In this document: positions 22,876 through 38,157 of the stretch, piece after piece
Numbering within the stretch: position 1 is the first letter of the stretch
Layout: the number at the start of each line of letters is the position of its first letter
NCBI RefSeq assembly: GCF_013409935.1
Contig: NZ_JACCCO010000001.1
Span: 2,356,001 to 2,420,000 of the forward strand
Length of the DNA: 64,000 nt
Reading direction: 5' to 3'
Origin: Streptosporangium sandarakinum
Lineage (GTDB): Bacteria; Actinomycetota; Actinomycetes; Streptosporangiales; Streptosporangiaceae
Made by a program: the position numbers and the translations under genes
Notes under the pieces: generated by a model
Databases searched by the model: none
What the model was told of the DNA's origin: nothing
What the model saw: the letters and a program-made list of their open reading frames with translations, nothing else

Positions 22876-23742
22876 TCAGACCGCGTCCGTCAGCGCCGCG
22901 AACTCCTCGTCGCTCAGCTCCAGGGTCGCCGCGGCGACGTTCTCCTCCAGGTGCGCCACCGAGGAGGTGCCCGGGATGGGCAGCATCACCGGCGAGCGCC
23001 GCAGCAGCCAGGCCAGCGCGAGCTGCGACGGCGTGGCGTCGTGCCGTTTGGCCAGGGCGTCCAGCGGGCCGCCCTCCCTGGCCAGCTCGCCGGTCGCGAG
23101 CGGGAACCACGGGATGAAGGCCAGGCCGTTCGCCTCGCAGCGCGCGAGGACCGGATCGGCGTCGCGCGCGGCGAGGTTGTAGAGGTTCTGCACCGAGACG
23201 ATCGTCGCCGTCTCACCGGCCCGCTCCAGTTCCTCGACGCCGACCTCGCTGAGGCCGATGTGGCGGATCTTGCCCTCCCGCTGGAGCGCGGCCAGCTCGC
23301 CGACCTGGTCGGCCAGGGGCACCATGGGGTCGACGCGGTGCAGCTGGAGCAGGTCGATCCGCTCGACGCCGAGGTGGCGCAGGCTCAGCTCGACCTGCTG
23401 GCGCAGGTACTCGGGCCGGCCCACCGGGCGCCAGTCGTCGGGACCGGAGCGGGTCAGGCCGGCCTTGGTGGCGATCACCAGGTCGTCCGGGTACGGGTGC
23501 AGGGCCTTCCTGATGAGCATCTCGGACACGAACGGGCCGTAGGAGTCGGCGGTGTCGATGAAGTTCACGCCCAGCTCGACCGCGCGGCGGAGCACCCGTA
23601 CGGCCTCCTCCGGGTCGCGCGGCTCGCCCCAGACCCCCTTGCCGGTGAGCTGCATGGCGCCGTAGCCGAGGCGGTTGACGGTGAGGTCGCCCCCGATGGC
23701 GAACCGGCCGGAGGCGTCCGCGGGACGGGTCGTGGTGGTCAT
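22876..23742 (-). CDS. Aldo/keto reductase
   Basis: A 288-aa NADPH-dependent reductase with a TIM-barrel fold. The catalytic tetrad is visible: Asp and Tyr in [10 protein letters not shown], Lys in VIATKAGL and His in LLQLHRVD. The coenzyme loop region near the C-terminus reads [17 protein letters not shown]. The N-terminal [10 protein letters not shown] is typical of AKRs of the YghZ/PdxI-like group. Substrate unknown. Convergent with the broken sugar-transport operon and separate from the operon to its right. Confidence 0.9.
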
Positions 23743-23821: not shown

Positions 23822-24634
23822 CTAAATCCCCTTTTCACCATGGGCGAGCTGGTCGTCGAGGACACGTCTGGCCTGGCGGACGATGGCCTCGTCGACGAAT
23901 CGGCCGTCGGGGAGGGCGACCGCCCCGGTCCCGGCCGCCGCCACGATCTCGCGGGCCGCCGCGACCTCCTCCTCACCGGGGCGGTAGGCGTCGCGGATGA
24001 CCGGGAGCTGGGCCGGGTGGATGGCGGCCCGTCCGCGGAAGCCCATGGCCCGGCCGGCGCGGCACGACTCGGCCAGACCTTCGAGGTCGCGGAAGTCGGT
24101 GTAGACCGACTGGGCCGGCGCGGGCAGCCCGGCGGCCCGGGCGGCGACCACCAGCCGCGACCGCGCCCAGGACAGCCCCGCCTCGTCGCTGACGCCCAGG
24201 TCGGCCCGCAGGTCGGCCTCCCCCAGGCCGATGCTCGCCACCGCCGGGTCGGCCGAGGCGATCTCGTAGGCCCGTTCAAGGCCGAGAGCGGACTCGATGA
24301 GCGGGTGCAGCTCGGCGCCCGGCACGGCGGCGGCGACGTCGCGCATCTGACCGGCCGACTCGGCCTTGGGCACGCGGATGCCGGCCGTACCCGCGGCCAG
24401 GGCGCCGACGGCGCGCAGGTCGGCCTGGCCCCAGGCGGTGCGGGTGTCGTTGATCCGGACCTGCACGCGCGGCCGCGGGGTGGCGAGCAGCGCCACGACC
24501 TCGGCCCTGGCCAGGTCCTTGTTGCCGGGGGCGACGGCGTCCTCCAGGTCGACGATCACCACGTCGGCCGGGCCGGCGAGCGCCTTGGCCACCAGGTCCG
24601 GCCGCTCGGCGGGCGCGTACAACCAGGTCAGCAT
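23822..24634 (-). CDS. HpcH/HpaI/CitE-family CoA-ester lyase
   Basis: A 270-aa TIM-barrel protein, last gene of the large operon. VIVDLEDAVAPGNKDLAR, VRINDTRTAWGQADL, the Glu in HPLIESALGL and the Asp of GLGEADLRADLG are the CitE-type metal and CoA-ester-binding segments. Such enzymes cleave malyl-, citramalyl- or similar 3-hydroxyacyl-CoA into acetyl-CoA or a related CoA ester and a keto acid. Its ATG overlaps the CoA-transferase stop, so the two should act in sequence: activation, then cleavage. The substrate is not predicted. Confidence 0.87.
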   Translation of the reverse strand: MLTWLYAPAERPDLVAKALAGPADVVIVDLEDAVAPGNKDLARAEVVALLATPRPRVQVRINDTRTAWGQADLRAVGALAAGTAGIRVPKAESAGQMRDVAAAVPGAELHPLIESALGLERAYEIASADPAVASIGLGEADLRADLGVSDEAGLSWARSRLVVAARAAGLPAPAQSVYTDFRDLEGLAESCRAGRAMGFRGRAAIHPAQLPVIRDAYRPGEEEVAAAREIVAAAGTGAVALPDGRFVDEAIVRQARRVLDDQLAHGEKGI

Positions 24635-25806
24635 CACACCACTCCCCTGTCGCGCAGCGCCTCGATCTCGGCGGGCGAGAGCCCCGCCTCCGTCAGGACG
24701 CCGATCGTGTCCGCGCCGTGGGCGCGGCCGGTCCAGCGGATCTCGCCGGGGGTGTCCGACAGCCGGAACATGACGTTCTGCATCCGCAGCGGTCCCAGCT
24801 CGGGGTCCTCCACGGTGGTCACGGCGTCCAGGGCGGCGATCTGCGGATCGGCCAGCACGTCGCGCACGTCGTAGACGGGCGCCACCGCGGCCTGCGCCTC
24901 CTCGAAGGCGGCGAGCACCTCCTCGCGGGTGCGCGCGCCGACCCACGCGGCGACGGCCTCGTCCAGTTCGGCGGCGTGCTCGGCCCGTCCCGCCCCGGTG
25001 GCGAACCACGGCTCGGTGATGTACTCCGGCCGCCCGACCAGGCGCATGACACGCTCGGCGATGTTCTGCGCCGAGGTGGACACCGCGACCCAGGAGCCGT
25101 CCGCGCACCGGTAGGTGTTGCGCGGCGCGTTGTTGACCGACCGGTTGCCGGTGCGGGGCGGCACGATCCCGAGCCGATCGTAGATCGTCGGCTGCGCGCC
25201 GAGCACGGTCAGGATCGGCTCGATGATCGACATGTCGACGACCTGCCCGGAGCCCCCGGACCCGCGCGCGTGGAGCGCCGTCATCACGGCGTAGGCGGTC
25301 GCGAGCGCGCAGATGCCGTCGGCCAGGCCGAACGGCGGCAGCGTCGGCGGCCCGTCCGGCTCGCCGGTCATCGCGGCGAACCCGCTCATCGCCTCGGCCA
25401 GCGTGCCGAAGCCGGGCCGTCTCGCGTACGGGCCGAACTGGCCGAACCCGGTGACGCGGGCGAGCACCAGGCGCGGGTTGACCTCGCGGAGCCGGTCGTA
25501 GGAGAGGTTCCACCGCTCCAGCGTTCCCGGGCGGAAGTTCTCGATGATCACATCGGCGTCACGCGCCAGGGTGAGGAGCAGGTCCTGGCCCTCGGGCACC
25601 GACAGGTCGATGGTGATCGTCCGCTTGTTGCGGCCCAGCATCTTCCACCACAGGCCGCCGGGTCCGTGTCCCCGCGAGGAATCCGGTTTGGCGGGATGCT
25701 CCACCTTGATGACCTCGGCGCCGAAGTCGCCGAGCATCATGGCCGCCATCGGTCCCGCGAACAGCGTCGCGAGGTCGAGGACGCGGATCCCTTCCAGGGC
25801 TTTCAC
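24634..25806 (-). CDS. CaiB/BaiF family (class III) CoA-transferase
   Basis: A 390-aa enzyme. EGIRVLDLATLFAGPMAAMM, FGAEVIKVEHP, NKRTITIDLS, and DVIIENFRPGTLERW are class III signatures. The catalytic Asp is likely in PFGLADGICALA. It moves CoA from a donor ester onto an organic acid. It is coupled to the CitE-type lyase by a 4-base overlap. A 177-bp gap with 19-bp repeats separates it from the ribokinase gene upstream, so this pair may be a separable module of the operon. Confidence 0.9.
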   Translation of the reverse strand: MKALEGIRVLDLATLFAGPMAAMMLGDFGAEVIKVEHPAKPDSSRGHGPGGLWWKMLGRNKRTITIDLSVPEGQDLLLTLARDADVIIENFRPGTLERWNLSYDRLREVNPRLVLARVTGFGQFGPYARRPGFGTLAEAMSGFAAMTGEPDGPPTLPPFGLADGICALATAYAVMTALHARGSGGSGQVVDMSIIEPILTVLGAQPTIYDRLGIVPPRTGNRSVNNAPRNTYRCADGSWVAVSTSAQNIAERVMRLVGRPEYITEPWFATGAGRAEHAAELDEAVAAWVGARTREEVLAAFEEAQAAVAPVYDVRDVLADPQIAALDAVTTVEDPELGPLRMQNVMFRLSDTPGEIRWTGRAHGADTIGVLTEAGLSPAEIEALRDRGVV

Positions 25807-25890
25807 TGTCGTTCCTCCAGATTCACGGCGCGTCCCCCGGCCGGGGCGGCCGGAACCGGTGTCCGGTGGCCGTCCGGGCCCGGGGCGCGA

Positions 25891-25942
25891 CGGGTTCGGC
25901 GTTCGGCGGCGGGTTGGGTGTTCAGTGGCGGGTTGGGCGTCC
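25891..25942. repeat. Three 19-bp tandem repeats in the operon gap
   Basis: CGGGTTCGGCGTTC, CGGGTTGGGTGTTC and CGGGTTGGGCGTCC start at 25891, 25910 and 25929, exactly 19 bp apart. They lie in the only sizeable gap of the minus-strand operon (25807-25983), between the ribokinase and the CoA-transferase. They could form protein-binding sites or simply be slippage repeats. Confidence 0.6.
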
Positions 25943-25983
25943 GGACGGGACTTCCGGGCGCCGCGGGCGGGCTCCGGCGGGGG

Positions 25984-26859
25984 TCATCGGAGCGCCGCGT
26001 CGATCTCGGCACGGCCGGGCATGGAGGTGCTGGCCCCCTCCCGCTGCACCGACAGGGCCGCCGCCGCGGCGGCGAAACGCAGCGCCTCCTCCTGCGGCCT
26101 GCCCTCGGCGCGCGCCACGGCCAGCGCGCCGACGAAGGTGTCCCCCGCGGCGGTGGTGTCGACCGCCCGCACCGGTACGGCGGGCACGCGCAGCCGCCCG
26201 CCGGCGCGGGAACCGTACAGCGCCCCTTCCGCGCCGAGGGTGATCACCGCTTCGGGGACGAGTTCCAGCAGCGCCTCCAGCGCCTCCCGCGGATCGGCGA
26301 GGCCGGTGAGCGCCTCGGCCTCGTGCTCGTTCGGCACGATCAGGTCCACGGCGTCGAGCAGCTCCCGGGGCAGTTCCCGGGCGGGGGCCGGGGTGAGGAC
26401 GACGGGGACCCGCGCCTGGCGGGCGGCGGACACCACGGCCTCCATGGGCAGTTCGAGCTGGAGCAGCAGCGCGTCGGAGCGGGCGATGACCGCGAGATCC
26501 TCCGCCGAGGGGGCGGTGACGGCGCCGTTCGCACCGGGGACCACGATGATCGAGTTGCCGCCGTCGTCGTCGACGACGATGTGGGCGACGCCGGAGGAAC
26601 CCGGCACGACCCGGAGGCGGCTGACGTCGACGCCCGCCGATCCGAGCGTCTCGCGTACGACGGGCCCGAAGGCGTCGTCCCCGACCGCGCCCATGAACGC
26701 GACGTCGGCGCCGGCCCGGGCCGCGGCGACGGCCTGGTTCGCCCCCTTGCCGCCGGGGACGGCGGCGAACGCCCGCCCGGTGACCGTCTCGCCGCGTTTC
26801 GGCACGACCGGGGTGTAGGCCACCAGGTCCATGTTGGCGCTGCCGAAGACCGAGATCAT
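25984..26859 (-). CDS. rbsK: PfkB-family sugar kinase, ribokinase-like
   Basis: A 291-aa kinase. The N-terminal PfkB signature is VPGGKGANQAVAAARAGADV, preceded by GSANMDLVAYTP as in ribokinase. The C-terminal catalytic signature is AVDTTAAGDTFVGALAV, where the Asp is the base. LIVPNEHEAEALTG also matches RbsK. It would phosphorylate a pentose such as ribose at O5. The ATG overlaps the stop of an ADP-ribosylglycohydrolase-family gene, so the sugar it phosphorylates is probably released by those hydrolases. Confidence 0.9.
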   Translation of the reverse strand: MISVFGSANMDLVAYTPVVPKRGETVTGRAFAAVPGGKGANQAVAAARAGADVAFMGAVGDDAFGPVVRETLGSAGVDVSRLRVVPGSSGVAHIVVDDDGGNSIIVVPGANGAVTAPSAEDLAVIARSDALLLQLELPMEAVVSAARQARVPVVLTPAPARELPRELLDAVDLIVPNEHEAEALTGLADPREALEALLELVPEAVITLGAEGALYGSRAGGRLRVPAVPVRAVDTTAAGDTFVGALAVARAEGRPQEEALRFAAAAAALSVQREGASTSMPGRAEIDAALR

Positions 26860-28220
26860 GCCCTCTCCTCCGCGATGGCCAGGGTGCGGCCGGTGAGCCG
26901 GTCGAAGCCGATGCCGTCGAAGCCCCGCAGGCTGCTGGCCAGCCGGTTCCCCGGCTTCCACCGGTCGGGGACGCCGGAGGCGCCGAGCAGCCCGCCCACG
27001 ATCGAGCCGACCGTCGCCCCGGCCGAGTCGGTGTCCCAGCCGCCGGCGACGGCCCCCGCGATCGACGCCGTGAAGTCGCCGCGCCCGTGGACCAGCGCCG
27101 CCGCGATCAGCGCCGCGTTGTTGATCGTGTGGACCCAGTGCAGGTCGCCGTGGCGTTCGTACAGCCGGTCGACCACCCGCTCGAAGTCCGGCTCCGACGA
27201 GGCGTCCTCGACGGCGTCCCGTACCGCCCGGGCCAGCCGCGACCCGGCCGGCACGACGGAGAGCCCGGCGGCGACCACGTCCTCGACCGAGGAAGCCACG
27301 AGGGAGTGGGCGCACATGGCGGCGACCATCATCGCGCCGTAGACGCCGTTGCCGGTGTGGCTGAGGCGGGCGTCCCGCCAGGCGAGCGCGGCGGCGGCCG
27401 CCGGATCGCCCGGATTGACCCAGCCGTAGACGTCCGCCCTGATCAGGGCGCCGATCCACTCCCGGAACGGGTTGCGGTGCGTCGCGGTGCGGGGCGGCTC
27501 GATCCCGTCGAGCAGGTTGCGGTACGCCGCCCGCTCGGCGGTGAAGACCCGGCCCGCGGGCAGCTCGTCCAGCCACATGGTGGCCACGTCGGCGGTGGTG
27601 AAGTCGCGGCCGAAGCGTTCCAGCAGGGCGAGCCCGAGAAGCGGGAAGTTCAGGTCGTCGTCCTCGGGCACGCCGTCGATGTTCTCGGCGAGCGAGTTGA
27701 CGGCGCTGCGCCTGTTCCACGGCCAGCGGGCCGTCACCTCGTCCGGCAGGCCCACCGCGGTGAACCAGCCGCGGATCGGCCAGTTGCCCGTGGCCTCGGC
27801 GATCTCCCTGATGCCCTCGCGGGGGATCTTCTCCACGGGTTTGCCGAGCACGCATCCGGCGGCGCGTCCCAGCCAGGCGCCGAGCAGCCGGTCGGGGAGC
27901 CGGGCCGGGTCGGCGGCCACGCGGGGGAAGCCCCCGGGGGCGGCCAGGGTGATCTCGGCGAGCCCGGTGGGTTCGGGGAGCGGGGAGGGGATCGCCGCCA
28001 GCTCGTCCAGCAGCGCACCGGCCAGCTCGCGCAGCGCCGGGCCGGCCGGCCGCGGGGAGGCGCCCGCCCTGGGCGGCGCGTCGTGCCCTCCGGCGGCGTG
28101 CCAGCGGGCGGCGAGCGCGGCGGCCTCCGGGAGGCGGCCGTCCTCGGCCGCCTGACGCAGCTCGTGGCCGACCAGGTCCTCCGGCTGCACCCAGGTGAGC
28201 CGGATCAGGCGGTCGGTCAC
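26856..28220 (-). CDS. ADP-ribosylglycohydrolase-family protein 1 (large, with N-terminal extension)
   Basis: A 454-aa protein from the GTG at 28220 (GTGA overlap with the next gene's stop). Residues 1-125 are an extension unlike its paralogues. The family domain begins at LLGAWLGRAAGCVLGKPVE, where the usual GD is GR. The acid patch is PEDDDLNFP, and the C-terminal metal motif is GGWDTDSAGATVGSIVGG (Asp-x-Asp-Ser, intact). The family (DraG/ARH) uses two metals to hydrolyse N- or O-ribosyl bonds. This form is common beside sugar transporters, where the true substrate is unknown. Confidence 0.87.
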   Translation of the reverse strand: MTDRLIRLTWVQPEDLVGHELRQAAEDGRLPEAAALAARWHAAGGHDAPPRAGASPRPAGPALRELAGALLDELAAIPSPLPEPTGLAEITLAAPGGFPRVAADPARLPDRLLGAWLGRAAGCVLGKPVEKIPREGIREIAEATGNWPIRGWFTAVGLPDEVTARWPWNRRSAVNSLAENIDGVPEDDDLNFPLLGLALLERFGRDFTTADVATMWLDELPAGRVFTAERAAYRNLLDGIEPPRTATHRNPFREWIGALIRADVYGWVNPGDPAAAAALAWRDARLSHTGNGVYGAMMVAAMCAHSLVASSVEDVVAAGLSVVPAGSRLARAVRDAVEDASSEPDFERVVDRLYERHGDLHWVHTINNAALIAAALVHGRGDFTASIAGAVAGGWDTDSAGATVGSIVGGLLGASGVPDRWKPGNRLASSLRGFDGIGFDRLTGRTLAIAEERA

Positions 28221-29389
28221 GCCGTCCCTCCCGCCGTAACGTCCCGGATCAGGGAGGCGAAGGCGGCCTCGTGCGCCCGCCGTGCGGCGAGGTCGTCCGC
28301 GTGGACCCGCCGGGCCACCTCGGCGATGGACACGCCGGGGGCCACCAGGTCGATCCTGCTGGCCTCCGCCACCGGACCGAGCCACTCGGACGGCACCGCG
28401 GCGGCTCCGCCGAGCGCCCCGGCGATCGCGCCGCCCATGCTGGCGATCGAGTCGGCGTCGCGGCCGTAGTTGACCCCGCCGAGCACGGTCTCGCGGTAGT
28501 CGCCCTTCGCGATGAGCAGGAACGCGAGCGCCAGCGGGATCTCCTCGATACTGTGCAGGCGGCTCGGCCGGCGGGCACCGAGGCCCTGGTCGCGGTAGGT
28601 GTCGGCGACGGTGTCGTAGGGGGCGACGGCCTCGCGCAGGGCGTCGAAGGAGCCCTCCCAGTGGTCGAGGCCGCGGGCGCGGTCGCAGACGGCCTCGATG
28701 GCGGCCCGCGTGCCGTCCTTGGCGAGCCGCAGGCAGGTCGCGACCACCGAGTCGGGGGTCGCGCCCGGGCGCATGGCCTCGGCGACGGCGGCGGCCAGCA
28801 CTCCGGCGGCCTCCCGGCCGTAGCTGGACTGGTGGGCGCCGGCCAGGTCGATCGCCTCGGCGTACGCCCCGTCCGGGTCGGCCGCGTTGACGATGCCGAC
28901 GGGTGCCATGTACATCGCGGCACCGCAGTTGACGATGTTGCCGACGCCGGCCTCACGCGGGTCCACGTGGCCGTAGTGCAGGCGCAGGACCAGCCACTTC
29001 TCGGCGAGGAAGACCCGCTGCAGGGGCAGCGCCTCGGCCTCCAGCTCGGGGATCCAGCGCTTCTCGCCCATCATCTCGGGCACCAGGTGCTCGGCCGCCG
29101 CGTACGCGTCGAGATGACCGCCCACCTTCTCGTAGACGCGGATGAGGGCGTGGGTCATGAGGGTGTCGTCGGTGACGTGGCCGTCGCCCTTGTGGTAGGG
29201 CGCGATGGGACGGGCGTTACGCCAGTCCTCGAAGTACGGCGGGACGATGCCCGTCACGTGGCCGCCGTAGCGCCGGCGTATCTGCTCGGGCGTCCAGCCC
29301 TCGGTCGCGCCGCCGATCGCGTCGCCGACCGCGGCGCCCGCCACGCATCCGACGGCCTTGTCGGTCAGCAGGTCCTCCAGCGGCGTCAT
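28217..29389 (-). CDS. ADP-ribosylglycohydrolase-family protein 2
   Basis: A 390-aa protein with all family motifs intact: VGDAIGGATEGWTPEQI near the N-terminus, the metal-binding TDDT in GHVTDDTLMTHAL, and GRDADSIASMGGAIAGAL near residue 330. A 30-residue insertion with EDWRNARPIAPYHKGDG precedes the TDDT motif. The ATG overlaps the next gene's stop by 4 bases. Of the four paralogues this is one of the two most likely to be an active ribosyl hydrolase. Confidence 0.9.
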   Translation of the reverse strand: MTPLEDLLTDKAVGCVAGAAVGDAIGGATEGWTPEQIRRRYGGHVTGIVPPYFEDWRNARPIAPYHKGDGHVTDDTLMTHALIRVYEKVGGHLDAYAAAEHLVPEMMGEKRWIPELEAEALPLQRVFLAEKWLVLRLHYGHVDPREAGVGNIVNCGAAMYMAPVGIVNAADPDGAYAEAIDLAGAHQSSYGREAAGVLAAAVAEAMRPGATPDSVVATCLRLAKDGTRAAIEAVCDRARGLDHWEGSFDALREAVAPYDTVADTYRDQGLGARRPSRLHSIEEIPLALAFLLIAKGDYRETVLGGVNYGRDADSIASMGGAIAGALGGAAAVPSEWLGPVAEASRIDLVAPGVSIAEVARRVHADDLAARRAHEAAFASLIRDVTAGGTA

Positions 29390-30357
29390 GCCAGTCCTCC
29401 AGCGATGTCGATGAGATCCGTTCCGGCCAGATCGGGGATGCCGCAGCCGACCAGTGTGCGGGCCGTGGCGCACCAGCCCTCCGGCAGGGCCTGGTAGCCG
29501 GTGTGCGCCCCGGTGAGAGCCCCGGCCAGCGCCGGAGCGGAGTCGGCGAGCGACGACAGGCACGCGGCGGCGGGCACGGCCGCGCTCAGCGCGCCCGCGG
29601 ACACCTCCGCGAGCGCCAGGGCGGCGGCGACCGTCTGGGCGGCCGCGACGCCGTAGCTGTAGACGTGGTCCAGCAGGGCCGCGTCGAGGGCCGGGACCGC
29701 CGCGAAGGGGTCGCCCGCCTCGCGTGCCACCGCGAGCGCCGTCCGGGTCATGTGGCCGATCGCGGTGTCCTCGGGCAGCTCGGCCAGGGCCGCCTCCACG
29801 GCCGAGGGCATCGGCCCGCCCGCGACGAGCTCCGCGATCGCCGCCGCCATCGCCGCGGCGGCGTGGACGCCGTCCCCGGCGTTGGTGACCGAGGCGTCGG
29901 CCCGCGGGTCGGCGCTGGCCGCCCCGAAGGCGACGGCCCGGATCGCCGCCGCGTCGTCGAAGAAGTGCGGGTTGTCGTGCCCGCTGGCGGGCGGCCGCTT
30001 GCCGGCGGCCAGGTTGTCGAGCGCCGAGCGTACCGAGATCCGTACCCGCAGGTCGGAGCGCTCCGCGAGCCTGCCGAACGCCTCCGCCCGGTCCTCGTGG
30101 ATCGTCAGCGCGGTCCAGGCCAGCCACTCGGCGTCGTCGGACGGCCCGATCGCCAGCGGCTCGACCGGCTGGTTCAGTGAGAACGGCACGGGCAGCGTGG
30201 TGACCCGGTGCTCCTCGGCGAAGGCGTCCAGCTCCCGCTCCAGCCGCCTGCTCCAGGGCGCCAGCAGGGTGGAGCGGTGCCGCGCCGACGGCCAGCCGGC
30301 CGCGTCGCCGATCGCGAGGCCGACGAAGGCGCCGCGGATCCTGTCCCCCGATGACAT
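29386..30357 (-). CDS. ADP-ribosylglycohydrolase-family protein 3 (degenerate metal motif)
   Basis: A 323-aa protein. GAFVGLAIGDAAGWPSARHR is the N-terminal family motif, and the acid patch reads PSDDAEWLAWT. The C-terminal motif is SLADSAPALAGALTGA where relatives have RDTDTVAA, so the first metal Asp is replaced by Leu. It may be a regulatory or binding member, or have altered metal use. A strong GAGGAGAG lies before the ATG at 30357, 38 bases after the preceding stop. Confidence 0.85.
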   Translation of the reverse strand: MSSGDRIRGAFVGLAIGDAAGWPSARHRSTLLAPWSRRLERELDAFAEEHRVTTLPVPFSLNQPVEPLAIGPSDDAEWLAWTALTIHEDRAEAFGRLAERSDLRVRISVRSALDNLAAGKRPPASGHDNPHFFDDAAAIRAVAFGAASADPRADASVTNAGDGVHAAAAMAAAIAELVAGGPMPSAVEAALAELPEDTAIGHMTRTALAVAREAGDPFAAVPALDAALLDHVYSYGVAAAQTVAAALALAEVSAGALSAAVPAAACLSSLADSAPALAGALTGAHTGYQALPEGWCATARTLVGCGIPDLAGTDLIDIAGGLA

Positions 30358-30395
30358 GTCTCTCCTCTACTTCTCGTACCGGCCCGCGGACACGC

Positions 30396-31358
30396 TCACG
30401 CCACCCTCCCCGTCGCCGCCACCAGGTCGGTGGCCGCGTCGAGCACGTGCCGCCCGGCGACGACCGGGAGGCACCTTCCCGTGGCCGGGCCGATCTCCGC
30501 GGCCCAGCGTTCCGGAACGGCGGCCTCGCCGCGCCCCGCCCCCGCGAGGGCGCCCGCGATGGCCGCGGTCGTGTCGGCGTCCCTGCCGAGGTTGGCGGCG
30601 GAGACGACGGACCCCTCCACCTCTCCGGCCCCCATGAGGTAACCGGCGAAGGCGAGGGCGACAGCCTCGGGCGCGAGGTCCGTCCAGGGGTAGTGGCGCA
30701 CCACCACGGCCGCGTACAGCTCCTCCACCGAGCCGGTGGCGACGGCCTCGACGGCGGCCCGCAGGTTGCGGGAGGTCCAGGAGTCCTCGGGGACGGCGGC
30801 GATCCCGGCCTGGACGACCTCGCCGGGGGCGGCGCCGGTCATCGCGACGGCCACCGCCGCCGCGACCGCCTGGCCTCCGTACACGCCCTCGCCGCTGTTG
30901 CTCACCACGCCGTCCACCGCCACCAGCCGGGCCGCCTCCGCGGGACGGCCGGCGGCGAAGATCCCGTACGGCGCGGCGCGCATGGCCAGCCCGTCCGACC
31001 ATCCGTGCGGGTGCCACAGGCCGGACAGCGGCGGGGTGAGGCCCCGGCGGAGCGCCTGGATCGCGCCGAGCTCGGAGAAGCCCGCGCCCCGCATCGGACC
31101 GTCGATGCCCGGGATGATCTGCTCGCGGTACTCCCTGGCCACGTCGGCGGGGGTCATCGCCGCGCCGTACCGGCAGAGCAGGGAGGCCGCGAAGAGGGTG
31201 TACTCGGTGTCGTCGGTGCCGCCTTTGCCGGGCTCGATCTCGGTGAGACGGCCCCAGCGCCGGGCGATCTCCTCCGGGGCGAGGTTCTCGGCGGGGCGCC
31301 CGAGGGCGTCGCCGGCCGCGAGGCCGAGCAGGCACCCCCGGGCGCGGGTCAGCATCAC
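30396..31358 (-). CDS. ADP-ribosylglycohydrolase-family protein 4
   Basis: A 320-aa protein with intact motifs: ARGCLLGLAAGDALGRPAEN, GGTDDTEYTLF near residue 50, and NLGRDADTTAAIAGALAGA near 260. First hydrolase after the binding-protein gene, whose stop it overlaps. Starts are a GTG at 31358 directly followed by an ATG at 31355. By motif it should be an active dinuclear-metal glycohydrolase. Confidence 0.9.
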   Translation of the reverse strand: MMLTRARGCLLGLAAGDALGRPAENLAPEEIARRWGRLTEIEPGKGGTDDTEYTLFAASLLCRYGAAMTPADVAREYREQIIPGIDGPMRGAGFSELGAIQALRRGLTPPLSGLWHPHGWSDGLAMRAAPYGIFAAGRPAEAARLVAVDGVVSNSGEGVYGGQAVAAAVAVAMTGAAPGEVVQAGIAAVPEDSWTSRNLRAAVEAVATGSVEELYAAVVVRHYPWTDLAPEAVALAFAGYLMGAGEVEGSVVSAANLGRDADTTAAIAGALAGAGRGEAAVPERWAAEIGPATGRCLPVVAGRHVLDAATDLVAATGRVA

Positions 31359-32662
31359 TTGTTGTACCGCTCCAGCACCTTGTTGCCCTCGTCGACGAGC
31401 GTCTTGGCCGCCTCGTCAAGGGTGATCTTGTTGGCGAAGTACTGCTGCAGGGCGGGGGTGGCCACCTTGCTCTTCCACTCGTCGAACCCGTTCACCTTGA
31501 GGTAGGGCGCGACCACGAGGTTCTTGGCGGAGGCGGTCGCCACGTTCCAGCCGTTCTCCTCGGTGGTCATGGAGGGGTCGCTCGCGGCCTTGACGCTGGT
31601 CGGGAGCAGCCAGTCACCCTTGGCGAGCTTGGCCTGGTTGGTGCTGTTGAGGAAGAAGGAGATGAACTTCGTCGCCTGGTCGGGGTGCTTGCTGTCGGCC
31701 GCGACGGACAGGGTCTGCGAGGCGGCCCCCTGGTCGGCGCTGGTGCCCTTCAGCGGCGGGATCGTGACCCACTCGAAGCCGGGCGGCGCCTGCTCGACGA
31801 CCTGCTGCCGCAGGTAGACGCTCGCGGGGAGCATGGCGTACTTGCCCGCGTAGAAACCCGGCAGCGGGTCGGCGGTGCCCATGCCGAGCGCGGACGGGTC
31901 GGCCGTCTTGTCCTTGTAGAGCTGGTCGTGGACGCGCTGCATCACCTCGCGCTCCTCGGGCCCCACCTTGACCGTCGCCTTGGTGCCGTCGGTCTGGAAG
32001 AAGGTGCCGCCGAAGTTGAGCGCGAGGTTGAGCACCTTGTTCACCGGCGTCTTCAGCGGCCAGGCCACCCCGAAGGTGTCGCCCTTGGTGAGCTTCTTGC
32101 TGATCTCCTCGAACTCGTCCCAGGTCCACGGGTCCTCGGGGGTCGGGACGGGCACCCCGGCCTTGTCGAGCAGCTTCCTGTTGGCGATGATGACCTGCGA
32201 CTCCTGGAGGAACGGCACGCCGTACACGCCCTGGCCGCCCTTGCCGTCGCCGAAGGTCACGGTGTCCCAGGCGGCCTGCGGGATGTCGCTCTTCAGGTCG
32301 GCGGGCAGCTTGCCGGAGAGGTCCAGGAGATAGCCGCGGGAGGCGAAGCCGGCCAGCGCGGGGGAGTCGTCGTGGATGACGTCCGGCGGGTCACCGGCCT
32401 CGAACGACGTGACGAGCTGGTCGTTGACGTTGTCCCAGCTGCCCTGGATGTACTCGACCTTGATGTCGGGGTTGGCCTTGTTCCACTCGTCGACGATCTC
32501 CTTGTTGGCGGCGACGGACTCCTTCTGCCAGGCCAGGCTCAGGAACTTCAGGCTCACCGGCTCACCGGCCTTGCCGCCATCGCCACCGTCGCCCGACGAG
32601 CAGCCGGCGGTCAGGGCGGCGATCGCGGTGGCGGCCGCCACGAGTGCGGTTCTGGTACGCAA
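31355..32662 (-). CDS. Sugar ABC transporter substrate-binding lipoprotein
   Basis: A 435-aa protein from a TTG start at 32662 with AGGAGAG upstream. The lipoprotein signal is ALVAAATAIAALTAGCSSG, with Cys as the lipid anchor. A Gly/Asp-rich tether leads to a CUT1 (SBP_bac_1) fold with NKANPDIKVEYIQGSWDNVN and GDPPDVIHDDSPALAGFA. It binds the substrate outside the membrane and passes it to the two permeases encoded just upstream. No ATPase gene is in the operon. A shared MsiK-type ATPase, as used by other actinobacterial CUT1 systems, would be needed. Confidence 0.92.
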   Translation of the reverse strand: MRTRTALVAAATAIAALTAGCSSGDGGDGGKAGEPVSLKFLSLAWQKESVAANKEIVDEWNKANPDIKVEYIQGSWDNVNDQLVTSFEAGDPPDVIHDDSPALAGFASRGYLLDLSGKLPADLKSDIPQAAWDTVTFGDGKGGQGVYGVPFLQESQVIIANRKLLDKAGVPVPTPEDPWTWDEFEEISKKLTKGDTFGVAWPLKTPVNKVLNLALNFGGTFFQTDGTKATVKVGPEEREVMQRVHDQLYKDKTADPSALGMGTADPLPGFYAGKYAMLPASVYLRQQVVEQAPPGFEWVTIPPLKGTSADQGAASQTLSVAADSKHPDQATKFISFFLNSTNQAKLAKGDWLLPTSVKAASDPSMTTEENGWNVATASAKNLVVAPYLKVNGFDEWKSKVATPALQQYFANKITLDEAAKTLVDEGNKVLERYNK

Positions 32663-32744
32663 CGGACTCTCCTATCGAGGGGTACGGCTCCGCCGGGTCC
32701 GGCTCGGCTCGCCCCGCTGGTGTCGGGGGGTTTTTGAAGATCGG

Positions 32745-33563
32745 CTATCCCTTGACGGCACCGGCCAGCAGGCCGGACCTGAGCCGTCTCTGGATGATCG
32801 CGAAGAACGCCAGGCTCGGGATCGTGGCGAGCAGCGACGCCGCGGCGAGCGGGCCGAGACGCACGACGCCTTCGGCGCCGGTGAACTTCACGAGGGTCAG
32901 CGGCAGCGTGGCCACGTCGGGGTCCTTGAGGACGACCAGGGCGAAGAGGAACTCGTTCCACGAGGAGATGAAGGCGAACAGCAGCGTGGCCACCACACCG
33001 GGGGCGAGGAGCGGCGCCACGATCCTCACCAGCGCGCGGATCCGGCCCGCGCCGTCGACCGCCGCCGCCTCCTCCAGCTCGCGCGGCACGGACCGCACGT
33101 ATCCCTGGAGCATCCACAGCGCGAACGGCAGCGTGAAGGTGACGTGCACGACCGTGAGGCCGGGCAGCGTGTTCACCAGGTCCAGGCTGCGCAGCACCAT
33201 GAACAGCGGAATGATGATCAGGATGAAGGGGAAGACCTGGCTGACCAGCACCCATCCGATCGCGAACTTGTTGACGAGCGAGCGGTGGCGGGCCATGGAG
33301 TAGGCCGCGGGCAGGGCGAGCACGACCGTCAGCACGGAGCTCGCGACCGCGACCACCAGGCTGCGCAGCGCGCTGCCGACGATGTCCTGCTCGGTGAACG
33401 CGTCGGCGAAGTTGGTGAGGACCGGGTGACGCGGGATCCACGTCGGGGTCAGGCTCGCCATCTCCTGCGACGTCTTGAGCGCCGTGGACAGCAGCCAGAG
33501 CAGCGGGAAGGCCAGGAAGACCATGTACCCGAGGAGGGCGAGGTACTGCAATGGCCTGCGCAT
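32745..33563 (-). CDS. Carbohydrate ABC transporter permease (CUT1, MalG-like)
   Basis: A 272-aa protein with six membrane helices (YLALLGYMVFLAFPLLWLL, WVLVSQVFPFILIIIPLFMV and others). The EAA loop is LEEAAAVDGAGRIRALVRIV and the C-terminus RRLRSGLLAGAVKG is typical of MalG-type subunits. It lies one base from the partner permease stop and 82 bases before the binding-protein gene, a spacer that may allow higher expression of the binding protein. Confidence 0.92.
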   Translation of the reverse strand: MRRPLQYLALLGYMVFLAFPLLWLLSTALKTSQEMASLTPTWIPRHPVLTNFADAFTEQDIVGSALRSLVVAVASSVLTVVLALPAAYSMARHRSLVNKFAIGWVLVSQVFPFILIIIPLFMVLRSLDLVNTLPGLTVVHVTFTLPFALWMLQGYVRSVPRELEEAAAVDGAGRIRALVRIVAPLLAPGVVATLLFAFISSWNEFLFALVVLKDPDVATLPLTLVKFTGAEGVVRLGPLAAASLLATIPSLAFFAIIQRRLRSGLLAGAVKG

Positions 33564-33564
33564 G

Positions 33565-34497
33565 TCAGCTCACCTCCCGCATCTGCCGGCCGATGTAGAG
33601 ACCCAGTACGGCCAGCACGACGATCACGATCGCGACCCCGAGGGTGGCGGCGTAGCCGAAGAAGCCGTAGCGGAACGCCTCCTCGTAGGCGAAGAGCATC
33701 GGCAGCCGGGTCTGCCCGCCCGGACCGCCCTGGGTGAGGACGTAGACCAGGCCGAACTGGTTGATGTTCCAGACGAAGTCGAGGGAGGTGATCGTCACGA
33801 TGACCGGGCGGAGCTGCGGCAGCGTGATGCTCCAGAAGCGGCGCCACGTCGTGGCCCCGTCCACGTGGCCGGCCTCGTGCAGTTCCCTGGGCACGCCCTG
33901 CAGCCCCGCGAGCAGCACGACGGTCGTCTGCGGCATGCCGGTCCAGATCCCGACGACGATCACCGCGGGGAGCGCGATGGAGAAGTCGTTGAGCCAGTCG
34001 ACGTTGTGGTCGAGCAGCCCGGCCCCCTGCAGCGTGCTGTTGAGGATGCCGGCGTTGGGGTGGTAGACGAGCCGCCACATCAGCCCGATGACGACCGGCG
34101 GCATCGCCCACGGCACCATGGCGAGCACCCGGGTGAACGCCCGGAACCGCAGGTTCTCGTTGAGCAGCAGGGCGAGCCCCAGCGCGGCCACGAACTGCAG
34201 CACGGTGACCGAGACCGCCCAGATCAGGCCGATGCGGAACGACGCCCAGAAGTCTCCGTCGGTGAGGAGGTCGCCGAAGTTCGACAGGCCCACGAACGAG
34301 GTCACGGAGTTGCGCCCGGACCTGGCGTCGGTGAAGGCGAGGTAGATGCCGTAGAGCAGCGGGCCGACGCTGAAGATCAGCACCGGGATCAGCGCCGGCA
34401 GCATCAGGAGGAGCGTCTCGCGCCCCTGCCGGCTCTTTTTGGGCCTGCCGCGGCGATCCGCCGCGGGCTCCCGTGTTCTTTCGGCCGTCAGGGTCAT
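33565..34497 (-). CDS. Carbohydrate ABC transporter permease (CUT1, MalF-like)
   Basis: A 310-aa protein from the ATG at 34497, overlapping the LacI stop by 4 bases. A charged N-terminus (TREPAADRRGRPKKSRQGR) is followed by six helices, with LLLMLPALIPVLIFSVGPLL first. The EAA loop is LHEAGHVDGATTWRRFWSITL. FVWNINQFGLVYVLTQGGP is typical of MalF-type sugar permeases. Partner of the MalG-like protein next to it. Confidence 0.92.
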   Translation of the reverse strand: MTLTAERTREPAADRRGRPKKSRQGRETLLLMLPALIPVLIFSVGPLLYGIYLAFTDARSGRNSVTSFVGLSNFGDLLTDGDFWASFRIGLIWAVSVTVLQFVAALGLALLLNENLRFRAFTRVLAMVPWAMPPVVIGLMWRLVYHPNAGILNSTLQGAGLLDHNVDWLNDFSIALPAVIVVGIWTGMPQTTVVLLAGLQGVPRELHEAGHVDGATTWRRFWSITLPQLRPVIVTITSLDFVWNINQFGLVYVLTQGGPGGQTRLPMLFAYEEAFRYGFFGYAATLGVAIVIVVLAVLGLYIGRQMREVS

Positions 34498-35507
34498 GGA
34501 GTCTCCTCCCCCATGGTCGAGGCGCGGGTCACGAGGCGGGGTTCGACGGTGACCGTGCGGGGTGCCCGGCCGTCGCGGTCCAGGCGGTCGAGCAGGAGCT
34601 CGGCGGCCGCCCGGCCGCGCTCGGCCGAGCCGAGCGAGACGCTGGTGAGCGGCGGCCAGGCGATCGTGGCGAGGTCGGTGTCGTCCATGCCCGCCACGGC
34701 GACGTCCTCGGGCACCCTCCGTCCCGCGCGCCGCAGGACGTCGAGCGCCCCGAGGGCGATCAGGTCGTTGGCGCACAGCAGCGCGTCGAGGTCCGGCACG
34801 CGTTCGAGCAGGCGGGCCGCCGCCCGGGCGCCGTCGGCGCGGTAGAAGTCACCCACCTCGACGAGGTTCCGGTCGTACGGCAGGCCGAGCGTCTCCAGCG
34901 CCTCGGCGTAGGCGGCGGAGCGGGCCGCGCCGGGAACGGTGTCCAGCGGGCCGTTCACGAAGCCGATGCGGCGCCGGCCCAGGCCGTGGAGGTGCTGGAC
35001 GACGAGCCGCACGCCGGCCCTGGAGTCGACCCGCACGTTGTCCACCGGGGTGCCCTCGGGCACGGAGCCGATGACCACGATGGGCGCGCGGGCGGCGGCG
35101 AACATCTCCAGGTGCCCGTCGGTCACCCTCAGCGGGATCATGATGAGCCCGTCGATGTACCGCTCCCCGAGGCCGCGGAGCACGTCGATCTCGTCGGCCG
35201 CGTCCGCGTTGGTGGAGTGCAGGACGAGCCGGTAGCCGGCCGCCTTGAGCATCGGCTGGATCTCCCGGACCATCGCGAGGTAGACCGGGTTCCCTATGTC
35301 GGCCATCGCGAAGCCGATCTGGTTGCTGCGCCGTGACTTCAGCGACCTCGCCGCCGAGTTCGGCACGTAGCCGAGCTCGCGCGCCACGCTCATCACGCGG
35401 CGTTCGGTCTCCGCCCTGGTGGGGAGGCCGTTGAGCACGCGTGACACCGAGGCGATCGACACGCCCGCCCGCCGGGCGATCGTCGTGATCGTCGGCTCGT
35501 CACTCAT
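34494..35507 (-). CDS. LacI family repressor of the ribosyl-hydrolase operon
   Basis: A 337-aa protein. The helix-turn-helix is TITTIARRAGVSIASVSRVL, followed by the hinge segment PNSAARSLKSRRSNQIGFAM and a sugar-binding domain. First gene of the operon and translationally coupled to the permease. Two mirrored operators (35532-35576) directly upstream imply that it represses itself and everything down to 23822 until an inducer is taken up. Confidence 0.92.
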   Translation of the reverse strand: MSDEPTITTIARRAGVSIASVSRVLNGLPTRAETERRVMSVARELGYVPNSAARSLKSRRSNQIGFAMADIGNPVYLAMVREIQPMLKAAGYRLVLHSTNADAADEIDVLRGLGERYIDGLIMIPLRVTDGHLEMFAAARAPIVVIGSVPEGTPVDNVRVDSRAGVRLVVQHLHGLGRRRIGFVNGPLDTVPGAARSAAYAEALETLGLPYDRNLVEVGDFYRADGARAAARLLERVPDLDALLCANDLIALGALDVLRRAGRRVPEDVAVAGMDDTDLATIAWPPLTSVSLGSAERGRAAAELLLDRLDRDGRAPRTVTVEPRLVTRASTMGEETP

Positions 35508-35531: not shown

Positions 35532-35576
35532 GTAAACGTTTTCAGTAGGCGGCGTCACGTCTCTGAAAACGTTTAC
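35532..35576. promoter_or_regulatory. Paired LacI operators of the ribosyl-hydrolase operon
   Basis: GTAAACGTTTTCAG (35532-35545) and its exact reverse complement CTGAAAACGTTTAC (35563-35576). Each contains the palindrome AAACGTTT and the centres are 31 bp apart, close to three helical turns, so repressor dimers would sit on the same face. They begin 24 bp upstream of the LacI start codon. Confidence 0.85.
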
Positions 35577-35697: not shown

Positions 35698-37984
35698 CTA
35701 GACGGCGGTCAGGACGACCGGGACGTCGGCGCCCACCACCTCGACGCCCGTGACGCGCGCCCCCCCGAGACGGTCACCCGCAGCCCGTCCCCCTCGGAGA
35801 CGGCGGTGATCACGGTGTCCCCGTCGACGTCGGAGACGACGGCGCCGCTCTCCCCCACCCCGCAGGCGACCAGCGTGATCTCCCCGAACGGCCCGTCGCC
35901 CACGGCCTCCCCCGGGTCGGACAGGACGGGGATGAGCGCGCCGTACCGGACGAACAGCGGGATCCGGTCGAGCGGCGCGGAGACCGTCACGTACCGGCCG
36001 CCGGAGAGCACCTCGCCCGTCCAGTGGTCCACCCAGTCGCCCTCGGGCAGGTACACCTTCCGCACGCCGTCCGGCGAGGTCATCGGGGCCACCAGCAGGT
36101 CGCGGCCGAGGAGGTACTCCAGGTCGGCCTGCCAGGCCACCGGGTCGCCGGGGTGGTCCACGCACAGGGCCCGCATCATCGGCGCCCCGGTGCGCGCGGC
36201 CTCGACCGCCGCGGTGTAGATGTACGGCATGAGCCGGTGGCGCAGCCTCAGCGCCGCGACGGCCTCCGCCTCGACCTCGGGGAACTCCCACGGTTCCCGG
36301 CTGGTGGTGCCGTGCAGGCGCACCAGCGGCGACAGCGCGCCGAACTGCATCCAGCGGACGTACAGGTCGTCGGTCGGGCGGCCGGTGAAGCCGCCCGCGT
36401 CGTGGCTCCAGAACGGGACGCCGGACAGGCCGTGCGACAGCCCGCCGCGCAACGTGCTGCCCATCGCCGGGTAGCTCGTGTAGGTGTCGCCGCCCCACTG
36501 CGCCGCGTGCCGCTGGCCGCCGAGGAAGGACGAGCGCGCCCACACCATGCCGTGCCCGGCGACCTCCCTGGTCACCTCGGAGACGAGGTCGTTGAACAGG
36601 AGCGCGTAGACGTTGTGCAGGTCGGCGCCGGTCATCCCGTTGGAGGCGACCGCGTCGTGCGGCACGCCCTCGGCGAAGTCGGTCTTGAAGACCCGCACGC
36701 CCTGCTCCAGCAGCGGCCGCAGCAGTCCCCGGAACCACTCGGCGGCCGCGGGGTTCGTGAAGTCCACGATGCCGCAGGGCGGGTAGGAGCCGTGCCAGCA
36801 GCCGGCCACGTAGACCTCGCCGTCCGGTCTCCTCAGGAAGTGGCCGTTCTCCGCCGCCTCGGCGAACGCCGGGCTCAGATGGGAGACGTACGGGTTCATC
36901 CACAGGCATACCTTGAAGCCCATCCGGTCCAGCTCGGCTAGCATCGCGCCGGGGTCGGGGAGGTTCTCCGCGTCCCACCGCAGGTCCGACCAGTGCCCGT
37001 CGGTCTGCCAGTAGGTGTCCAGGTGCAGCACGTCGCACGGGATGCCCCGCTCCCGGATCGTCCGGGCCCGGTTCAGCACCCGCTCCTGGGTGTCGACGAA
37101 GAACCCCGAGGAGATCCAGGTGCCGAACGCCCATTTGGGCGGCAGCAGCGGCGGGCAGGTCAGCCGGTCGAACCGGTCGAGCACCTCGGCGGGGGCGGGC
37201 CCGGCGATCACGTAGTAGTCGATGAGGTCGTCCGGCACCACGATCTGCACGCAGCTGTGCGTGGACTGGCAGACGTCGAACTCCACCGGCGTGCCGCTGT
37301 CCACCATCACGCCGTAGCCGCGGCTGGACAGGTAGAACGGGACGTTCTTGTAGGCCCGCTGCGACTCGGCGCCGAAGGCGTCGAAGTTCCACATGACAGG
37401 CCGCTGGCCGCGCTTGTCCAGCGGGGTGAACGACTCGCCGAACCCGCCGAACGCCTCGTCGGCGGGGGCGGCGAAGCTCTCGTGGTAGGCGGCCACCGCG
37501 CCGTCCGCGCTGGAGCGGCCGAACGGCAGCGTGCGCATCCGGCCGCTGATGTCGGTGTGGCCGCGGTCCTGCTCCAGCAGGGTCGCCCCGGAGGCGTCGG
37601 TGAACCTCAGGTGCCAGGGCGACAGGGTGATCTCGGCGCGCAGCGAGCCGGCGTCGACGGTGATCGCGCCGTCGCCGGTCTCCACCCTCGCCCCGGCGAA
37701 CCCGCCCGGGGTGACCATGGAGATCGCGGCGGCCGACCGGGTCCGCGCGTCCGCGTCCTGGCCGAGCCGCACCCGGATCACCCCCTCGCCCGCCACGCCC
37801 ACCTGGGCCACCAGCGTCTCGCCGGTGGAGGTCGCGGCCTTAGCGTCACCGAGGCGCCGCCGGACGCCACCGCCTCGGCGGCGGTCAGCGTCGCCGGGCC
37901 CGCCTCCCCCCGGACGCGCACCGGGAGTTCCGGGGGGTCGGCGACGAAGTACTCGTGCGCGATCAGGGGAGGGCGATAGGGCAT
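35698..37984 (-). pseudogene. GH31 alpha-xylosidase/alpha-glucosidase, two frameshifts
   Basis: The ATG at 37984 begins MPYRPPLIAHEYFVADPP. The frame shifts near 37841 (CTAAGG where CTGAAGG is expected before AATSTGETLVAQVG). The main frame (37811-35709) then encodes a YicI-like GH31 barrel: IPCDVLHLDTYWQTDGHW, the nucleophile Asp in FKTDFAEGVPHDA and the acid/base Asp in AQWGGDTYTSYPAM. A second shift near 35762, in a run of seven G, cuts the C-terminus; adding one G restores VTGVEVVGADVPVVLTAV to the stop at 35698. Both are single-base losses, so either a young pseudogene or assembly errors. Predicted to remove alpha-xylose from xyloglucan fragments. Confidence 0.82.
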
Positions 37985-38122: not shown

Positions 38123-38147
38123 TTAGTTTGGCTTCCATCCGAAATAG
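38123..38147. promoter_or_regulatory. Putative ROK operator, copy C (GH42 side)
   Basis: TTAGTTTGGC (38123-38132), 5-base spacer, TCCGAAATAG (38138-38147). It ends 10 bp before the GTG used by the GH42 gene and overlaps its ribosome binding site region. Copies B and C start 79 bp apart in the divergent promoter. Confidence 0.65.
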
Positions 38148-38157
38148 GGGACGTGAC

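Follow-up and report, generated by a model that had tools for sequence, protein, structure and literature searches.

Gene content and the four ARH proteins

A 64 kb stretch of the 7.65 Mb genome of Streptosporangium sandarakinum (the window; 73 percent GC) carries, on its minus strand at 23822-35507, an operon of eleven genes that joins a LacI-family repressor and a CUT1-type sugar importer to four ADP-ribosylglycohydrolase (ARH) family genes, a PfkB-family kinase, a CoA-transferase (CaiB) and a C-C lyase (CitE). The four ARH proteins are called ARH1 to ARH4 in gene order, and are distinct from the known enzymes named ARH1 and ARH3. An earlier reading made without searches (the sequence-only reading) had described eleven same-strand genes here, and this is borne out by the open reading frame (ORF) list and coordinates, by Pfam and by orthologues. 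From 35507 downwards the order is lacI, malF, malG, the solute-binding protein (SBP) gene, ARH1, ARH2, ARH3, ARH4, pfkB, caiB and citE, and the features are as follows.

35565-35576: LacI operator copy 2, one mismatch, 33 bp beyond copy 1 and about 58 bp before lacI
35532-35543: LacI operator copy 1, GTAAACGTTTAC with one mismatch, about 25 bp upstream of lacI
34494-35507, minus strand: LacI-family repressor (Pfam LacI and Peripla_BP_3), twin operators upstream
33565-34497, minus strand: MalF-like CUT1 permease (Pfam BPD_transp_1; orthologues)
32745-33563, minus strand: MalG-like CUT1 permease (ORF; orthologues)
31355-32662, minus strand: extracellular SBP, oligosaccharide-binder type (Pfam SBP_bac_1; nearest solved chains)
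30396-31355 (alternative start 31358), minus strand: ARH1, PF03747, TDDT and GRDADT intact
29386-30357, minus strand: ARH2, PF03747, DxD metal motif lacking its first Asp; may be a pseudoenzyme partner to ARH1
28217-29389, minus strand: ARH3, PF03747, TDDT and GRDADS intact; the most conserved of the four
26856-28220, minus strand: ARH4, PF03747, N-terminal extension of about 110 amino acids, EDDD and GWDTDS, GC for GD
25984-26859, minus strand: PfkB-family kinase, ribokinase type (TIGR02152)
24634-25806, minus strand: CaiB-type class III CoA-transferase (PF02515; Asp163 conserved)
23822-24634 (alternative start 24637), minus strand: CitE/HpcH-type C-C lyase, nearest model RipC citramalyl-CoA lyase

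Ten of the eleven proteins were scanned with Pfam and gave matches above cut-off (LacI, BPD_transp_1, SBP_bac_1, four to PF03747, PfkB, CoA_transf_3 and HpcH_HpaI), while MalG was identified via its orthologues instead. By their coordinates, LacI/MalF, ARH2/ARH3, ARH3/ARH4 and ARH4/PfkB overlap by 4 bases, the SBP/ARH1 and CaiB/CitE junctions overlap by 1 or 4 bases depending on the start codon chosen, and the remaining four of the ten junctions are gaps of 1, 82, 38 and 177 bp. LacI, the SBP and the two MalFG permeases form one gene run, as in LacI-regulated CUT1 operons; the gene for the importer ATPase is not within the operon. Streptosporangium pseudovulgare is the closest named relative identified, its ARH4 being 97 percent identical.

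Five proteins of the host genome match PF03747, four of them in the operon (188.6, 98.1, 166.6 and 174.6 bits for ARH1 to ARH4, against a gathering threshold of 26.2). They differ in length, as the sequence-only reading had noted (319, 323, 390 and 454 amino acids), and share 25-31 percent BLAST identity in five aligned pairs, the sixth pair, ARH2 and ARH3, giving no BLAST match and being alignable only as profiles. Judged by these comparisons, the four are separate subfamilies. None reaches the NCBIfam equivalog cut-offs for DraG or Tri1 (best score 57.8 against 337).

Motifs were examined in rows of distinct orthologues filtered by identity and by more than 85 percent coverage, and are presumably metal-binding as in the wider family. 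Both metal motifs are present in all 100 rows of ARH1 (one has Ser for the first Thr) and all 109 of ARH3, so that these two hold the complete two-metal set of TDDT and DxD. ARH2 is incomplete: both Asp of its first motif are kept, and the first Asp of the DxD pair is gone in 93 of 93 rows, the window protein reading L-A-D-S at the expected position; the loss extends to more distant ARH2 relatives (18 aligned rows, by eye). ARH4 has EDDD in place of TDDT, G(W/L)DTDS, and GC instead of GD, each in 97 of 97 rows. The motif states in the sequence-only reading (two intact proteins, one without GD and one without the first metal Asp) are thus those of ARH1 and ARH3, ARH4, and ARH2, and hold family-wide; the EDDD of ARH4 is an addition to that description. 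Since the changes in ARH2 and ARH4 are invariant across orthologues they appear to be fixed states, and decay was rejected as the explanation for the 'lost' motifs of ARH4. ARH2 lies immediately 3' of ARH1 in every locus with both, across four sets of loci, and may be either a pseudoenzyme partner or an enzyme that uses another set of metals.

An AlphaFold2 model of ARH4 (predicted local distance difference test, pLDDT, 89.3; predicted template modeling score, pTM, 0.92) was compared with solved chains using Foldseek. All 50 hits shown were of the ARH family (DraG, ARH3, MJ1187 and others), with TMt 0.59-0.75 and 14-22 percent identity for these 50 best, and from the model we are confident that ARH4 adopts the all-helical ARH fold. 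An ARH4 relative also occurs at L122 (L122:7531-8433 and L122:9423-10712) with a CUT1 importer, a PF01156 nucleoside hydrolase, a PhyH protein and a xylose-isomerase-like protein, which we read as another glycoside cluster.

Conservation of the cluster and its operators

ARH2 relatives (E up to 1e-30) were found in 96 of 297 sampled family genomes, and the order LacI-MalF-MalG-SBP-ARH1-2-3-4 is complete in 24 of the 33 loci first fetched. Seven of the 33 (L067-L073) belong to a second class, in which an ARH1-ARH2 pair is divergent from another LacI and MalFG, and in L058 and L061 the pair lies without LacI. Clusters of this second class (L067-L073 and L061) carry the ARH1-ARH2 pair only, with LacI or another regulator, an SBP and MalFG, and the pair seems to form an independent unit.

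An ARH4 profile run against GTDB species genomes gave at least 588 relatives, of which the best 80 were analyzed; the 71 of these that span at least 18 kb are referred to as full loci, scored with identity thresholds of our own choosing and with ARH4 present by selection. Among them ARH3 and ARH4 occur in 71, ARH1 in 66, ARH2 in 65, CaiB in 62, CitE in 61, PfkB in 46, LacI in 29, the importer in 28, and a glycoside hydrolase (GH)-like gene (see later) in 8. The scan reached Nonomuraea, Microbispora, Nocardiopsis, Jiangella, Micromonospora, Pseudonocardia, Amycolatopsis, Okibacterium and many Streptomyces, certain loci being one strain present in both the whole-genome and the named collections. 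Gene order is kept over many genera of several families, and because it recurs in this way the operon is not a chance arrangement; by the same comparisons the cluster is old and conserved in Actinomycetes, with pfkB optional. The sequence-only reading had made its case depend on the gene set being kept together outside this strain, and that is what was found, in many genera and in Streptomyces. Between the window and nine Streptomyces loci the top conserved protein is CaiB (72-76 percent), with ARH3 at 67-70. A genome of about 1.8 Mb (G1039; locus L260, 48 percent GC) carries LacI-MalF-MalG-SBP-ARH3-ARH4-GH-like-CaiB-CitE, which suggests a common, dissolved substrate.

ARH3 (E up to 1e-100) is present in 109 of 150 Streptomyces genomes. 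The cluster lies at gltB or lgt in 45 of the 71 full loci, and 41 of these 45 have ARH1-4 and CaiB/CitE without LacI or importer; at the same gltB-lgt site L163 and L195 have LacI and importer, L144 has LacI only, and L178 has ARH1-4 only. Altogether 43 full loci have no adjacent importer, all of them at this Streptomyces site (one filed as Kitasatospora), and four Streptomyces loci with LacI and importer (L157, L175, L193 and L200) have neither gltB nor lgt in view. In a tree of ARH3 and ARH4, made by a quick method from 63 of 81 possible rows (the others failed the gene-call filter), the cluster tracks organism groups, and the label 'no importer' requires 3 changes, one of which is a contig end (L125), against a shuffled mean of 20. 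Because L163, L195 and L144 share the gltB-lgt site, the importer-less state looks derived, and the importer was likely lost there.

Four consecutive ARH genes are likewise found in Streptomyces coelicolor (SCO2028-SCO2031), and as the Streptomyces loci examined here have ARH1-4 between gltB and lgt/trpB, these are probably ARH1 to ARH4, an assignment made from four consecutive genes near trp rather than from comparison with S. coelicolor sequence. SCO2032 and SCO2033 are presumably CaiB and CitE. In the portions of the published accounts available, trpX is SCO2038 (PMC5036795), SCO2028-2031 are counted among eight uncharacterized DraG/ARH homologues of S. coelicolor (PMC9411070), and SCO2028-2030 are named as DraG/ARH homologues (PMC5087735); these portions treat the proteins as ADP-ribosyl hydrolases and not as a pathway.

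Two palindromes of the type CYGTAAACGTTTACRG lie upstream of lacI. At up to one mismatch, these twin copies are the only GTAAACGTTTAC sites in the 7.65 Mb genome, and a reversed-pattern control gave 0. When the four GKAAACGTTTMC forms were searched at up to one mismatch, at least one site was found before lacI in 53 of 53 regions, and at least two in 46, compared to 4 of 5300 mononucleotide shuffles; the 53 regions are drawn from part of the LacI loci and include some from one strain represented twice. Operator-type sites accompany 17 of 17 loci with LacI and are missing from 57 of 58 without it. The exact form YGTAAACGTTTACR occurs in 41 of 200 family genomes, and its listed places, by coordinates read by eye, fall within about 7.5 kb of the ARH2 of the same genome, with seven exceptions. 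Four of the seven distant places (G120, G001, G005 and G008) precede one secreted protein of about 690 amino acids (see later), two (G203 and G182) precede other LacI genes, and the seventh is at G178:C129. The sites at G203:C1:7752458 and G182:C1:5192034 (L219 and L220) have, by reading, ribose-type ABC or kinase genes as neighbors, and the operator may be common to related repressors. With the LacI-regulated CUT1 sugar operons known from actinobacteria, the operon has in common LacI, SBP, MalF and MalG and an auto-regulatory palindrome with central AACGTT. We infer that the operon is LacI-repressed via its twin operators, to which the repressor is predicted to bind, and such control suggests a substrate that comes from outside.

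The acid branch and accessory proteins

The nearest solved chains to the SBP are sugar binders by name and include Lmo0181, YesO and an arabino-oligosaccharide binder. The kinase narrowly passes the TIGR02152 ribokinase model (306.3 against a cut-off of 299.65 bits) and falls below that of PRK11142 (275.1 against 341).

Asp163 of CaiB, which we take to be the catalytic Asp, is conserved in 91 of 91 rows. CaiB matches (E up to 1e-130) are present in 93 of 394 sampled genomes of the class, and of 20 such loci chosen, three are ARH clusters (L260, L269 and L271), the CaiB of the other 17 being 57-68 percent identical. One ARH-free context combines CaiB with a FadR-type regulator, CitE and a DctM-type TRAP (tripartite ATP-independent periplasmic) permease (L253, L256 and L072; Pfam); the other has a cyclase, MmgE/PrpD, an amidohydrolase and CitE (L258 by Pfam; L257, L261, L263 and L266 by reading). 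The nearest NCBIfam models are RipC for CitE (187.8 against an equivalog cut-off of 375) and a succinate/glutarate CoA-transferase for CaiB (231 against 750), both well below cut-off. RipC and the class III CoA-transferases of itaconate, mesaconate and glutarate metabolism are therefore the closest known counterparts by model; unlike RipABC-type degradation of itaconate or citramalate, the scores fall far short, and no hydratase family (itaconyl-CoA hydratase) is found among the ten Pfam-scanned operon proteins. The neighbors of the ARH-free CaiB/CitE genes suggest a hydroxy di- or tricarboxylic acid, for which malate, citramalate and 3-hydroxy-3-methylglutarate would be candidates. The sequence-only reading had an acid degraded through its CoA ester, and the recurrence of the CaiB/CitE pair in free-standing acid operons agrees with this.

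A run of CaiB, cyclase (PF04199) and MmgE/PrpD recurs at L258 and also at L257, L259, L261, L263, L265-L267 and L272, mostly with a hydantoinase/allantoinase-like amidohydrolase and CitE (Pfam check at L258 only); we read it as an acid or cyclic-amide pathway. At L072:3962-5314, beside the TRAP permease and CaiB/CitE, a 6-phosphogluconate-dehydrogenase-type NAD domain is fused to an RraA-like domain.

The secreted protein of about 690 amino acids mentioned above has a PF00756 (CE1-like) domain plus beta-propeller repeats, and its solved relatives include ferulic acid esterases. Exact GTAAACGTTTAC stands upstream of its gene in all six genomes that bear it, G113 and G201 being additional to G120, G001, G005 and G008. 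ARH2 is present in 58 of the 200 genomes, and these include all six (hypergeometric 5e-4, uncorrected for kinship; the 58 were counted by hand, on the assumption that all three scans drew one genome sample). Relatives at 51 percent identity lie within the cluster in Rugosimonospora (L177) and adjoin it in Okibacterium (L156). Since the operator precedes the esterase each time, the substrate probably contains an ester, and the enzyme is the best clue to this.

A GH-like protein of about 650-690 amino acids is encoded after PfkB or ARH4 in 14 fetched loci. Its C-terminal domain is of the FGE-sulfatase type (Pfam, both of two scanned), and in a low-confidence model (pLDDT 62.5) its N-terminal half weakly resembles barrels of the GH13/GH27 type; the model was considered too weak for assigning a family. 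Loci of Micromonosporaceae, Okibacterium and Amycolatopsis have the GH-like gene with ARH3/ARH4 and no ARH1/ARH2 in view. In the window, the 177-bp pfkB-caiB gap (25807-25983) corresponds to the position of this gene in relatives, and is possibly a deletion scar.

Just upstream of the operon are an alpha-xylosidase-like GH31 gene (35709-37811) and one that reads as a beta-galactosidase (38128-39900). A wider operon taking in GH31 and an aldo-keto reductase gene (22876-23742) was left out, as among the loci seen these two adjoin the cluster, at high identity, only in S. pseudovulgare (L124). A pattern scan gave 0 promoter-like sites and 5 terminator-like sites (shuffle mean 2.0, standard deviation 1.7). 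Later gene lists came from a home-made codon scorer and have approximate gene ends, and recurring 'clusters' in one gene comparison were ignored as they looked mostly like antisense shadow ORFs. Plasmid carriage was set aside, its sole basis being one tblastn match to an 11.85 Mb Nonomuraea record labelled plasmid.

A proposed pathway and its alternatives

We lean towards the view that the operon serves the LacI-repressed uptake and dismantling of a glycoside bearing a hydroxy-dicarboxylic, or similar beta-hydroxy, acid. In some relatives, this strain not among them, a secreted CE1-type esterase would first trim an ester outside the cell. The CUT1 importer, judging by its family, would then carry the glycoside inward, where the ARH proteins would cut a furanoside bond, probably to a ribofuranosyl group or a sugar with a similar cis-diol, ARH1 working with the metal-site-defective ARH2 and ARH3 with ARH4; conservation, gene order and family chemistry point to this step. 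The ribokinase-type enzyme would phosphorylate the freed sugar, a dispensable step. Finally, CaiB may convert the released acid to its CoA ester, which CitE would split to acetyl-CoA and an oxo-acid, as indicated by their families and by the separate acid operons. In most Streptomyces loci, which have the enzymes without a local importer or repressor, the compound would be made inside the cell or enter by another route. Known actinobacterial LacI-CUT1 operons use classical glycoside hydrolases intracellularly. In this operon, unlike those, the hydrolase slot is occupied by four ARH proteins, and the evidence supports their holding the place of glycoside hydrolases in a LacI-controlled dissimilation, with all reactions predicted. 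A search of the literature, mostly outside subscription journals, found no description of a pathway with this gene set.

Several observations weigh against this proposal. The ARH relatives that have been solved and tested act on ADP-ribosyl bonds. The kinase gene is absent from 25 of the 71 full loci, and CaiB and CitE from 8 of the 28 that bear the importer. The CE1-like esterase is found in few genomes (6 of 200 of the family), the host genome yields no match to it at E up to 1e-100, and a search of 101 Streptomyces at 1e-80, run without a positive control, gave none; the model of the GH-like protein is poor. Regarding the operator, the LacI-less Streptomyces locus L188 has a one-mismatch site 142 bp before ARH1, and a looser pattern applied to 13 genomes gave exact operator-type sites at L205, L207, L208 and L214, beside or inside genes without visible link, which were treated as chance.

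The sequence-only reading had the operon import a ribosylated compound and free ribose for phosphorylation. Import of a glycoside and its intracellular breakdown are supported, as is the acid route. Ribose as the sugar is no more than plausible; the kinase passes its model narrowly and is often absent. A plain riboside or nucleoside-like substrate, with ARH proteins freeing ribose, the ribokinase phosphorylating it and CaiB/CitE degrading an acid aglycone, would account for the kinase score, for the nucleoside hydrolase beside an ARH4 relative at L122, and for the palindromes near ribose-type genes in G203 and G182 (by reading). E. coli yegTUV offers a precedent: in the available part of the source, a (nucleoside-type) transporter, an ARH protein and a PfkB kinase likewise share an operon, controlled by a repressor with a single target, GgaR/YegW, a GntR-type protein sensing ADP-glucose (PMC10819704). 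It differs in having an MFS (major facilitator superfamily) transporter and not CUT1, one ARH protein and not four, and neither CoA-transferase nor lyase. We nevertheless consider a plain riboside rather unlikely, since both the CUT1 type of importer and the closest solved binding proteins suggest oligosaccharides, the kinase is dispensable, and the esterase and GH-like partners call for a more complex substrate. With these two proteins present in certain forms of the pathway, a glycoside that is ester-linked and perhaps larger is a better candidate than a simple riboside.

That the four are de-ADP-ribosylating enzymes, acting on protein, nucleic acid or an antibiotic and placed in a sugar operon for regulatory convenience, strikes us as unlikely to a greater degree. 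All four match PF03747, their nearest solved relatives are DraG, ARH3, Tri1 and MJ1187, and the probable S. coelicolor orthologues are filed, in the portions available, as DraG/ARH homologues (PMC9411070, PMC5087735). With the known DraG, ARH1, ARH3 and Tri1 enzymes they share the Pfam family, the ARH fold (by the ARH4 model) and, in the operon's ARH1 and ARH3, the dinuclear-metal motifs; they differ in the altered motifs of ARH2 and ARH4, fixed family-wide, and in a setting of sugar import and acid catabolism, being tied to an importer, a LacI operator and an acid pathway. According to the part of PMC13036486 available, SCO2028 and SCO2030 were inactive on U-alpha-ADPr, a result for that substrate only and for proteins whose orthology is presumed. 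No ADP-ribosyltransferase family occurs in the ten scanned operon proteins (the search did not extend to the neighbors and the rest of the genome), and a Tri1-type toxin-immunity role was rejected on the same count. A role in metabolite repair, in which the ARH proteins dispose of an endogenous glycoside that is damaged or unwanted, such as an N-ribosyl or O-ribosyl adduct, with import being secondary, would fit the 43 of 71 full loci that retain them at the Streptomyces gltB-lgt site without an importer in the cluster, the 109 of 150 Streptomyces genomes with ARH3 and the bare ARH1-4 of L178, and is very improbable, as the importer was probably once present at that site (L163, L195 and L144), the state without it looks derived, and LacI control suggests an outside substrate.

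More broadly, a branch of the ARH/DraG superfamily may have turned carbohydrate-active, with ARH3/ARH4 and ARH1/ARH2 dismantling an ester-bearing furanosyl glycoside so common that soil actinomycetes, most sampled Streptomyces and even the 1.8-Mb relative keep the pathway; this joint claim is offered tentatively, and may well prove wrong. If it is true, four of the eight S. coelicolor DraG homologues are not ADP-ribosylation enzymes, and proteins found in 109 of 150 sampled Streptomyces, now filed as ADP-ribosylation hydrolases, would gain a function class, a regulon and a reaction list. Homology-based counts of bacterial ADP-ribosyl hydrolases would then be inflated. Through the LacI operator and binding protein the substrate can be tested for directly, and, if the proposal is right, ARH-fold enzymes would be catabolic glycosidases too, and a widespread pathway for a natural glycoside would be awaiting discovery.

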